Below, one piece after another: positions 4,797 to 9,050 of a stretch of 40,887 bases of DNA. Location of the stretch: the NCBI GenBank assembly GCA_903900935.1, contig CAIUOX010000041.1, forward strand, positions 1 through 40,887, read 5' to 3'. Both the position numbers and the translations under genes were made by a program. The DNA is from an uncultured bacterium. GTDB lineage: Bacteria; Patescibacteriota; Minisyncoccia; Phycocordibacterales; PALSA-1337. The notes under the pieces are model-generated. The model saw only the letters and a list, made by a program, of their open reading frames with translations, did not search any database and was not told where the DNA came from. Each line of letters begins with the position of its first letter. Position 1 is the stretch's first letter.

Positions 4797-5720
4797 CTAC
4801 TTTCTTTTATTATGAAACTGTTTGTGTACTCTCTTGAGCTCACTATCTGTTACGTGAGTATATATCTGCGTTGTACTGATATTGGCATGACCGAGAAGCA
4901 TCTGGACCGAACGAAGATCGGCACCATTACCGAGAAGATCTGTAGCAAAACAGTGACGAATCACGTGTGGGGTTACTTTTTTTGAAATACCAGCCTTGAT
5001 AGCGTAATATTTCACAATTCTCTCAATAGAACGCTTTGTGAGCCCAGTTTCTTTTGTTTTATTTGATTCTGCACTCCCAACTTTTATAAATAAAGGATCA
5101 TCTGGGTCAATACGCTTGGCGAGATATGCTTTGATTGATTCACGAGCCATATCAGAAATAAATACAACACGAACCTTGTCACCCTTACCACGAACAGCAA
5201 ATTCATCGGCTTTCAAATCCATATCTCTCGAAAGGGAACAAAGCTCTGACACACGCAAACCTGTCGAAAATAAAAGCTCTAATATGGCTCTATCACGAAG
5301 TGATTTCAGATCAGTACCATTTGGAGCTTCGAGCAATCTTTTTAATTCATCAGAAGAAATAAGATCAATTTGACGATCACCAACCTTTGCCAACTCTATA
5401 TATTCTGGTGAAAGAGTTTTTATATTACGGCGAGCCAAAAATTTTAGAAATGCTCGTAGAGAAATCAAATAATAATTTTGTGTCTTTTTCTTCAGTGTTT
5501 GGTTTGAAGCATTTTTCAAACCAGTTGGTTGACGGTTTAACCAAAGACGGTACTCTCGTATCAGTTCTGGTGTGATATCTTTTGGGTCTTTTATCTTTGC
5601 AAATTCAATAAACCTAGCGAGATAATGATTGTAATTCTCAACAGTCTTCACAGAACGGCCTCTTTCAATCTCGATATATTCAAGAAACTGTTGTTTTAGG
5701 TCATGAATATTGTGCGACAT
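4797..5720 (-). CDS. xerC: tyrosine recombinase, XerC/XerD-like
   Basis: N-terminal SAM-like core-binding domain; catalytic LLFSTGLRVSEL, TPHVIRHCFATDLL, LGHANISTTQIYTHV. Confidence 0.9.
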   Translation of the reverse strand: MSHNIHDLKQQFLEYIEIERGRSVKTVENYNHYLARFIEFAKIKDPKDITPELIREYRLWLNRQPTGLKNASNQTLKKKTQNYYLISLRAFLKFLARRNIKTLSPEYIELAKVGDRQIDLISSDELKRLLEAPNGTDLKSLRDRAILELLFSTGLRVSELCSLSRDMDLKADEFAVRGKGDKVRVVFISDMARESIKAYLAKRIDPDDPLFIKVGSAESNKTKETGLTKRSIERIVKYYAIKAGISKKVTPHVIRHCFATDLLGNGADLRSVQMLLGHANISTTQIYTHVTDSELKRVHKQFHNKRK

Positions 5721-5807: not shown

Positions 5808-6074
5808 ATGTTAACGACACGTCAAAAGACAAAGATAATCAAGGAAACAGGCATTCACGACAAGGATACTGGCTCACCAGAGATTCAAGTCGCACTTTTA
5901 AGCAAGAAGATTGCCGAACTGACTGATCACCTCAAAAAACACAAAAAAGACAACCATTCACGCCGTGGCCTCCTAGGTATGGTCGCTGATCGTCAGACAC
6001 ATCTCGTTTATCTCAAGAAGAAATACCCAAAGCGCTACACAACTATCATCAAGAAATTGGACCTCAAGAAATAA
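5808..6074 (+). CDS. rpsO: 30S ribosomal protein S15
   Basis: DTGSPEIQVALLSKKIAELTDHLKKHKKDNHSRRGLLGMVADRQTHLVYLKKK. Confidence 0.97.
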   Translation: MLTTRQKTKIIKETGIHDKDTGSPEIQVALLSKKIAELTDHLKKHKKDNHSRRGLLGMVADRQTHLVYLKKKYPKRYTTIIKKLDLKK

Positions 6075-6077
6075 TCT

Positions 6078-6104
6078 GAAAAATTGGCGCAAGGCCAATT
6101 TTTC
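6078..6104 (+). terminator. intrinsic terminator-like hairpin after rpsO
   Basis: gaaaaattggc-gcaag-gccaatttttc, 11-bp perfect stem with T-rich 3' arm. Confidence 0.8.
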
Positions 6105-6229
6105 TTTGAGGCACATAAGGTGTACACTTAACATAGTGAGGAACTTTTACAAATAAATAATCATTTTTAATACAAATATCGGCATACGTATTTTTTACTT
6201 TTGCCTTTTTACTTTTAACTTTAATTTAC

Positions 6230-6748
6230 ATGTCAATAATCAAACACAAAGAACAACGCGTTGGTATATTTATCGATGCACAAAATCTCTATCATAGTGG
6301 CAAAAATCTATATCACTCAAAGGTCAATTTTGGAACTATTGTCAAAGACGCACTTGATGGTCGCAAACTCGTCCGCGCTGTCGCATATGTCATCGCCACA
6401 GAAGCAGGCGATGAAAACGCTTTCTTCGATGCACTCACAAAAATGGGCATAGAAACAAAAGTCAAAGACCTTCAAATCTTTAGCTCTGGTGCCAAGAAGG
6501 CAGACTGGGATGTTGGATTGGCTATCGATGCAGTCAAACTTTCACCAAAGCTTGACTCAGTCATTCTGCTTACTGGTGATGGTGATTTCTGTCCGCTAGT
6601 TGAATATCTCCAAATGAATCAGGGTTGCCAAGTCGAAGTCGTCTCATTCGGCAAATCTACTTCAGCAAAACTTATTGAAGTTACAGATCACTTTATGGAC
6701 TTGGACGAGAATCCAAATAAGTATTTGATAAGGTCTGGGAAGAAATAA
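6230..6748 (+). CDS. NYN domain (LabA/DUF88-like) putative nuclease
   Basis: VGIFIDAQNLYHS...KADWDVGLAIDAVKL...VILLTGDGDFCPLVEYL. Confidence 0.85.
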   Translation: MSIIKHKEQRVGIFIDAQNLYHSGKNLYHSKVNFGTIVKDALDGRKLVRAVAYVIATEAGDENAFFDALTKMGIETKVKDLQIFSSGAKKADWDVGLAIDAVKLSPKLDSVILLTGDGDFCPLVEYLQMNQGCQVEVVSFGKSTSAKLIEVTDHFMDLDENPNKYLIRSGKK

Positions 6749-6753
6749 TTGGA

Positions 6754-6872
6754 TTGACAAGGCCTACCCTTGTCATAGTTTTTTTGCTACATTGTGTAGG
6801 CAAAGTAGCATTACCAACTAACCGCCTCCAGATAGGCAGGTTTGAAGATATGACAAGGGTAGGCCTTGTCAA
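6754..6872. repeat. 24-bp perfect inverted repeat with 71-nt spacer upstream of pnp
   Basis: ttgacaaggcctacccttgtcata (6754-6777) and its exact reverse complement (6849-6872); each arm is itself a 7-bp hairpin, the first followed by TAGTTTTTTT. Confidence 0.9.
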
Positions 6873-6908
6873 CACCATTCAAGTCTGAAATCTGAAGGCG
6901 AAACTACA

Positions 6909-9050
6909 ATGACAAAGAAACAATATTCGATCGAAATCGGTGGCAAGATATTATCAGCCGAATTCAATGACCTCGCAGAAAACGCTGATGGATCAGTTAC
7001 TATTCGCTATGGAAATACAGCGGTACTCGCAACTGCCGTTATGGGTGATTTGAAAGATGGAGATTTCTTTCCACTCACTGTTGATTTTGAGGAACGCTTC
7101 TATGCAGCAGGAAGAATTCTTGGTTCACGATTCGTACGTCGAGAAGGAAAGCCGTCAACAGAAGCTATTCTTTCTGGACGTATAATTGACCGAACTATCC
7201 GCCCACTCTTCAATCAGCGAATGCGCAATGAGGTGCAAGTGATCGTAACTACCCTTGCGATAGACCAAGATGACCCAGATGTAATATCTGTTATTGCGGC
7301 ATCTCTCGCACTTGGAACATCATGTATTCCATGGAATGGACCAGCGTCAGCAGTACGCATCGCCAAAGACCATAACTGGTTCACTAACCCTGATTATGCA
7401 ATGCGTGATGAAGCAAAGATTGATATTGAATTGGTTGCATGTGGAAAAGATGGAATGATCAATATGATCGAGGTAGCTAGTAGGGAGGTAAGTGAAGATC
7501 TTATGAATGAAGCGCTCATTCGTGCAAGTGAAGAAATAGAAAAAATCCAGACATGGCAGAAACAAATCATTGCAGAGATTGGTAAACCAAAAACTAAGAT
7601 CATGTTACCAGAGCCAACACCAGGAACAAAAGAGTTGTTCAAGGTAGAAATTACACCAAAGCTCAAAAAGTACATCATGAGCAATACACCAGGGCATGGT
7701 CGTATTGATGAAATAAATGGTATCTGGTCAAAAGTATTTATAGAAAAGTTCCCAGATGGTAATGTTGCGATGGCACAAGAAGTATTTGAAGAAGCTGTCA
7801 ATGAACTACTCCATGAAGAAGCTATCAAAAATGGCAAACGTGCTGATGGTCGTACACTTGATCAGGTTCGTCCACTATTCGCACAAGCTGGTGGTGTTTC
7901 ACCGATGCTTCATGGCTCAGGAATCTTCTACCGTGGTGGAACTCATATACTTTCAGCTCTTACGCTTGGAAGCCCTGGAGATGCTCAGGTACTCGATGGT
8001 CTCATGGAACAACCAGATAAGCGCTTTATGCACCATTACAATTTTCCACCATTCTCAACCGGAGAAACAGGGCGTGTTGGTGGTACAAATCGACGAATGA
8101 TCGGACATGGCGCACTCGCAGAAAAAGCATTGATTCCTGTTATTCCAGCAAAAGAGATATTTCCATATGTTATTCGTATCGTCTCTGAAGCAATGGCGTC
8201 AAATGGCTCAACTTCTATGGGTTCTGTTTGTGGATCAACATTGGCGCTCATGGATGGGGGTGTTCCTATCAAAGCTCCAGTTGCAGGAATCGCTTCGGGC
8301 CTCATGATGAAGAGTGCTACTGAATATAAAGTACTCACCGACATACAAGGTCCAGAAGATCACCATGGTGATATGGATTTTAAGGTCGCTGGCACTCGAA
8401 CAGGCATTACTGCAGTACAAATGGATGTAAAGGTTGGAGGAATTCCACTTAAAATCCTTGCTGAAGCTTTTGAAAAGGCTAAAATAGCTCGCTTTACTAT
8501 TCTTGATGTAATCGAAAAAGAAATTGCTACACCAAGAGCAAAGATATCTCCTCATGCACCTGAGATTATTGTTATGAAGATCAAACCTGATCAGATTGGA
8601 CTAATTATCGGTTCAGGAGGAAAAACTATCAATGAAATCAGAGATACTACTCTTGTAGAGGACATCACAATAGAAGATGATGGAACAATATTCATTACTG
8701 GCAAGAATGAAACTGCACAAAAAGCAAAAGATATCATCTACGGAATGACAAGAGAATACAAAACAGGAGAAAGATTTGATGGGGAAGTAACTCGTCTTAT
8801 GGATTTTGGTGCTTTTGTAAAGATTGGTCCAAATTCAGAAGGATTGGTTCATGTCTCTGAAATAGCTTCTTTCAGAGTTGAGCGTGTAGAGACATACATC
8901 AAAGAGGGTGATAAAGTTCCTGTTGTTGTTAAAGAAGTTGATGAAAAAGGTAGAATAAACCTCTCTATCAAGGCCGCAAATCCAAACTTCTTCACAAAGA
9001 AAGAAGAACAACCTCGTCCACCGCGCACCGATTTCAAAAAAAGATACTAA
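6909..9050 (+). CDS. pnp: polyribonucleotide nucleotidyltransferase (PNPase) with KH and S1 domains
   Basis: Two RNase PH domains (FFPLTVDFEERFYAAGRI...), KH (IGLIIGSGGKTINEI) and S1 (GEVTRLMDFGAFVKIGPNSEGLVHVSEIA). Confidence 0.97.
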   Translation: MTKKQYSIEIGGKILSAEFNDLAENADGSVTIRYGNTAVLATAVMGDLKDGDFFPLTVDFEERFYAAGRILGSRFVRREGKPSTEAILSGRIIDRTIRPLFNQRMRNEVQVIVTTLAIDQDDPDVISVIAASLALGTSCIPWNGPASAVRIAKDHNWFTNPDYAMRDEAKIDIELVACGKDGMINMIEVASREVSEDLMNEALIRASEEIEKIQTWQKQIIAEIGKPKTKIMLPEPTPGTKELFKVEITPKLKKYIMSNTPGHGRIDEINGIWSKVFIEKFPDGNVAMAQEVFEEAVNELLHEEAIKNGKRADGRTLDQVRPLFAQAGGVSPMLHGSGIFYRGGTHILSALTLGSPGDAQVLDGLMEQPDKRFMHHYNFPPFSTGETGRVGGTNRRMIGHGALAEKALIPVIPAKEIFPYVIRIVSEAMASNGSTSMGSVCGSTLALMDGGVPIKAPVAGIASGLMMKSATEYKVLTDIQGPEDHHGDMDFKVAGTRTGITAVQMDVKVGGIPLKILAEAFEKAKIARFTILDVIEKEIATPRAKISPHAPEIIVMKIKPDQIGLIIGSGGKTINEIRDTTLVEDITIEDDGTIFITGKNETAQKAKDIIYGMTREYKTGERFDGEVTRLMDFGAFVKIGPNSEGLVHVSEIASFRVERVETYIKEGDKVPVVVKEVDEKGRINLSIKAANPNFFTKKEEQPRPPRTDFKKRY

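Follow-up and report, generated by a model that had tools for sequence, protein, structure and literature searches.

The pnp locus and its inverted repeat

The window, that is, the whole analysed stretch of 40,887 nucleotides, carries a short run of genes in the order rpsO (5808-6074), a gene for a NYN-domain protein (6230-6748, plus strand) and pnp encoding polynucleotide phosphorylase (PNPase; 6909-9050, plus strand; RNase_PH, KH, and S1 domains), and Pfam agrees with this order as given in the initial annotation. Directly after rpsO, and thus before the NYN gene and pnp, lies a terminator-like palindrome of 11 bp that is T-rich on its 3' side (6078-6104). Upstream of rpsO, the minus strand at 4797-5720 holds a tyrosine recombinase (Phage_integrase) gene that is probably of the ordinary Xer type.

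The stretch between the NYN gene and pnp contains the 24-nt sequence TTGACAAGGCCTACCCTTGTCATA twice in inverted orientation, at 6754-6777 on the plus strand (arm 1) and at 6849-6872 on the minus strand (arm 2). Both copies are exact, 71 nt of spacer separate them, and 36 nt lie between the end of arm 2 and the pnp ATG at 6909, just as the initial annotation described. The inverted repeat reaches 31 nt at 90% identity, and shuffled sequence gave no match at up to 3 mismatches. Each arm also folds singly, as first suggested, into a hairpin with 8 bp in the stem and 5 nt in the loop, and the region folds strongly as RNA (-68.9 kcal/mol, z = -8.3). Arm 1 and the T7 tract that follows it, TAGTTTTTTT, make up a terminator-like hairpin after the NYN gene (6755-6784, plus strand) that is the sole terminator-like site found in 6200-7000. 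The early reading of arm 1 as terminator of the NYN gene is therefore plausible, and in several relatives NYN is followed by other hairpins.

A putative extended -10 element of the pnp promoter, TGCTACATT (6785-6793, plus strand), lies between the arms. A loose version of this pattern, TGNTANNNT, is found upstream of the leader helix P1 described below in 37 of 44 leaders, with chance matches likely among them. From the conserved -10 we infer that pnp transcription starts near 6800, so that an mRNA started at this promoter should contain arm 2 only and no arm 1.

Copies of a dispersed REP-like palindrome

The two arms are single copies of a REP-like palindrome, GACAAGGYCTACCCTTGTC, that is dispersed in the genome: arm 1, with the core GACAAGGCCTACCCTTGTC, lies upstream of the putative pnp promoter, and arm 2 is a copy in opposite orientation. 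The core ACAAGGNCTACCCTTGT recurs at 0 to 2 mismatches elsewhere in the window's genome on contigs C11, C13, C34, C1, C12, and C24. Five sites in this genome have 0 or 1 mismatch, well above chance, and about eight have up to 2, though at 2 to 3 mismatches the reversed control matches too and the weakest sites may be chance. Among 33 genomes of the same genus, three (G011, G020, and G028) have GACAAGGYCTACCCTTGTC-type sites at up to 2 mismatches (control 0), with eight such sites in G020 and none in 26 more distant genomes. An exact-motif scan of GTDB contigs found the palindrome in three related metagenome-assembled genomes (MAGs) and two stray ones, and nowhere else. Across its sites the palindrome is mostly single rather than paired, and its flanks are not conserved from copy to copy, which sets the repeat unit at about 19 nt.

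Each of the four palindrome-bearing genomes has one RAYT-like Y1_Tnp gene (PF01797), and such genes are also present in congeners without the palindrome. The RAYT-like gene of G020 lies within a type IV pilin cluster with five palindrome copies around it. One of these five, an exact copy of the core, sits inside its reading frame just 5' of the HUH motif (L043:5433-5449), and a related palindrome, CCGAGGTCAGACCTCGTC, occupies the same place in the counterpart gene of the window's genome. This counterpart (L054; G000:C42:23255-24779), the only RAYT-like gene of its genome, is 64% identical to the G020 gene and shares its type IV pilin context, but it is ringed by a second, different palindrome, CGAGGTCWGACCTCG, of which seven copies lie around it, inverted doublets included; a genome-wide search with the wider pattern CGAGGTNNNACCTCG gives 34 sites versus 1 for the control. 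Because the genome's own RAYT-like gene carries this other palindrome, the family found at pnp is best linked to the RAYT-like gene of the sister species and is rare here. On the strength of the G020 arrangement, the palindrome was probably spread within the genus by a RAYT-type Y1 transposase.

Similar to the REP/RAYT systems described previously (PMC2817692, PMC3733652), these are short palindromes dispersed in both orientations that cluster, in G020, at a single-copy Y1 transposase gene, and their length of 19 to 24 nt and presence at several loci agree with the usual description of REPs as intergenic, dispersed elements of about 20 to 40 bp. They differ in that copies are few (about eight sites here and eight in G020, where REPs usually exceed 100) and in that no unpaired GTAG-type tag stands beside the stem, GTAG being found within the reverse-strand hairpin loop only. 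The flanking of a cognate transposase gene is likewise seen in G020, while the corresponding gene of the window's genome has the other palindrome on its flanks. Since the GTAG tag and the abundance of classical REPs are lacking, we call the repeats REP-like. Literature searches on Patescibacteria together with RAYT returned microbiome papers alone, of no evident bearing, and nothing was found for REP in candidate phyla, for pnp riboswitches there, or for structured RNA in Patescibacteria.

A conserved leader RNA upstream of pnp

A covariance-model match at 6815-6905 (plus strand) defines a pnp leader RNA built of two helices. The 5' strand of the outer helix P1, CGCCTCCAGAT (6823-6833), is followed by the AGG side of an asymmetric internal loop (6834-6836) and by the 5' strand of the inner helix P2 (6837-6846); the chain returns through the P2 3' strand (6878-6887), the AA side of the loop (6888-6889), and the P1 3' strand, ATCTGAAGGCG (6890-6900), which leaves 8 nt to the pnp ATG. 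Arm 2 occupies the apical loop of this hairpin. When RNA 6800-6920 is folded alone, P1, P2, and the arm-2 hairpin all form (z -4.1).

The same architecture of P1, an asymmetric loop (mostly AGG/AA), P2, and a variable apex is shared by 18 of 24 pnp leaders of the genus; their apices have very different lengths and their distance to the ATG ranges from 8 to 56 nt. Without being given the structure, RNAalifold predicted P1 and most of P2, and in a MAFFT alignment of the same-genus leaders 93.5% of the cells are paired. Double-sided changes affect 11 of the 20 pairs in that alignment, compared to 3.2 in shuffles (none of 500 reached 11), and slid controls do not exceed 5. In a larger set of 44 sequences they affect 15 of 20 pairs, with a covariation of 0.460 versus 0.214 when shuffled and at most 0.110 when slid, although this alignment was fitted to the model and thus leans towards the proposed structure. 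Covariation in P1 and P2 is strong. Comparative evidence of this kind shows that the leader exists at this position and pairs in this way, and the leader is probably a conserved cis-regulatory element of pnp.

Upstream regions of pnp from relatives yielded a first covariance model, and the 44 sequences a second one. Of 397 genomes of the order, 46 have one match each to the first model, covering 32 of 179 genera. The second model matches in 29 of 384 genomes sampled from the class, and 23 of these 29 do not belong to the order; the leader thus occurs in scattered families of the class. These counts are lower bounds, since strict filters drop weak matches and pnp went undetected in many relatives. 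At all 30 checked loci of the order-level search pnp follows the match on the same strand, and at the class level pnp lies downstream at 26 of 27 checked loci, so that 56 of 57 checked matches lie upstream of pnp. The leader is retained before pnp even in relatives where NYN or rpsO does not adjoin.

In 6 of 24 genomes of the genus the leader is absent before pnp, and in some species it must therefore be dispensable. Five genomes without it (G001, G021, G027, G031, and G034) have a close match to the -10 element 15 to 18 nt before the ATG, as would suit near-leaderless mRNAs. The pnp genes of five relatives (L119, L120, L128, L134, and L143), with TGNTACANT 15 to 18 nt before the ATG, appear to be near-leaderless, and leaderless mRNAs may be common in this lineage.

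No family among the Rfam covariance models matches the leader of the window or of ten related loci, and at E values up to 10 the window's leader drew only models of microRNA, snoRNA, and PreQ1 type, with scores well short of the gathering thresholds. The closest known kind is the Actino-pnp motif of Actinomycetales (RF01688, PMC2864571), which is likewise a conserved structured RNA upstream of pnp and was judged cis-regulatory by its authors, yet its model matches neither the window nor the ten related loci. The leader RNA is apparently new relative to Rfam 15, although the 2017 Weinberg survey of 224 RNAs may already include it. A literature search on the regulation of RNA decay in CPR/Patescibacteria, the lineage to which genome size and gene content probably assign the window's genome, found nothing.

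Folding alternatives and the proposed control of pnp

We propose, with a probability of roughly 0.7, that two REP-like copies enclose the promoter of pnp together with the 5' half of an already existing leader whose folding controls pnp. Arm 2 would lie in the tolerant apical loop of that leader, and an mRNA started from the -10 element would fold the leader hairpin with the P1 3' strand ending close to the AUG. In 27 of the 44 leaders this strand stops 8 to 20 nt short of the AUG, and only 3 of the 44 have an SD-like motif among the 20 nt that precede the AUG, which naturally suggests that translation initiation or mRNA decay is the step controlled. Leader folding would then probably govern the translation or decay of pnp mRNA, and the exclusive association with pnp favors autocontrol by PNPase as the most likely form. 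Arm 1 with its T-run would probably terminate NYN transcripts, and upon read-through it would pair with arm 2 and exclude the leader fold. In RNA with both arms, folding indeed favors the 24-bp duplex over the leader fold by about 9 kcal/mol. Since the duplex crosses P1 and P2, the two folds are mutually exclusive, and since arm 1 should lie outside the promoter-started mRNA, the duplex could form in read-through RNA only.

A possible but clearly less probable alternative is that the leader senses a ligand or another protein, such as a metabolite, a ribosomal protein, or a stress factor, instead of serving PNPase autocontrol. The highly conserved asymmetric loop between the two helices could be a binding site, and no Rfam match is at hand to indicate a ligand. 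However, the leader occurs once per genome and at nearly every checked locus before pnp, whereas a metabolite switch would often govern other genes also.

Far more speculative is an extended version of our proposal, in which a new class of regulatory RNA would control PNPase across a deep CPR-type lineage and the repeats would have been co-opted, the choice of promoter switching the RNA between the leader fold and a leader-destroying 24-bp duplex of the RNase III type.

The initial annotation had suggested the 24-bp duplex itself as the autoregulatory element of pnp, cut by RNase III in a transcript spanning both arms, in analogy to E. coli. RNA that contains both arms is most stable when folded into the duplex, the pnp copies are the best-preserved members of the palindrome family in this genome, and RNase III is encoded there; RNase III is found both with and without the leader, so its presence does not discriminate. 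We nevertheless consider this reading improbable, since relatives retain the leader without such a duplex, the arms are dispersed repeats, the first of them is terminator-like, and a putative promoter lies between them. Of the two observations that the initial annotation would have counted, taken together, against its own proposal, the repeat does appear at unrelated loci as a mobile element, while homologous leaders devoid of any hairpin were not what we found. What stands is that pnp is preceded by a structured, conserved leader; what finds no support is its identification with the duplex, so that the hypothesis points to the right kind of element but to the wrong helix.

PNPase autocontrol in E. 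coli is a textbook case, and the E. coli pnp leader with its RNase III/PNPase autocontrol was reportedly described by Jarrige, Mathy, and Portier in 2001, a paper cited in PMC2864571. Common to both systems are a hairpin in the 5' leader close to the start codon and the presence of genes for RNase III and PNPase, but the E. coli structure differs from the P1/P2 leader. Furthermore, E. coli pnp directly follows rpsO and is co-transcribed with it, whereas here NYN and a terminator-like palindrome intervene and pnp has its own putative promoter. The operon analogy is therefore weak, given the palindrome after rpsO and the persistence of the leader in relatives whose pnp is not beside NYN or rpsO.

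How the two copies came to lie here is indicated by G020, whose pnp leader aligns with the spacer between the arms from the -10 element through P1 and P2 but is not preceded by an arm 1 within 230 nt. At the position of arm 2, G020 carries a small hairpin (ACAA..CTTGTC), perhaps a decayed arm-2 copy, and this partial likeness of the apex leaves the time of insertion uncertain. As the arms bracket ancestral DNA, they were acquired separately or through rearrangement. In a REPIN (PMC3116915), two inverted REP copies likewise lie about 70 nt apart, and it is very unlikely that the pair arrived as one doublet of this type. Its layout is typical of REPINs and BIMEs (PMC2817692, PMC3733652) and a comparable pair adjoins the Y1_Tnp gene of G020, but the two REPs of a REPIN move together with their spacer, whereas here the spacer is orthologous to the promoter and leader DNA of G020, and on this comparison we rejected the REPIN as a unit. 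It is less credible still that the arms are sites at which recombination would invert the promoter as a switch: a promoter-like site is enclosed by perfect inverted repeats, yet inversion would break the leader helices, the spacer has the same orientation in all relatives, the palindrome usually occurs singly, and we rejected a tyrosine-recombinase switch with the neighboring Phage_integrase-family gene (4797-5720) as its sole support. A transcription-factor operator (palindrome near TTGACA) was rejected as well, the promoter-like match that uses an arm being on the minus strand, in the wrong direction for pnp, and the loop being asymmetric.

Palindromes also lie between the leader and the ATG in G011, G012, and G013 and in the apex in G004, which indicates that this stretch tolerates such insertions; at five of 18 cases, the window included, insertion at the pnp leader is a tendency rather than a proven hot spot.

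The main gain of this analysis is a conserved pnp leader RNA that is absent from Rfam 15. With its covarying helices, it offers a concrete, testable regulatory RNA for tiny-genome, mostly unculturable organisms and is open to in vitro study with the cognate PNPase, while the exclusive folds make promoter-started and read-through RNA testably different. The REP-like repeats and RAYT-like genes suggest that this mobile-repeat system extends into the lineage, and the pnp locus illustrates that a functional RNA can harbor REP-like repeats in a loop that tolerates them.
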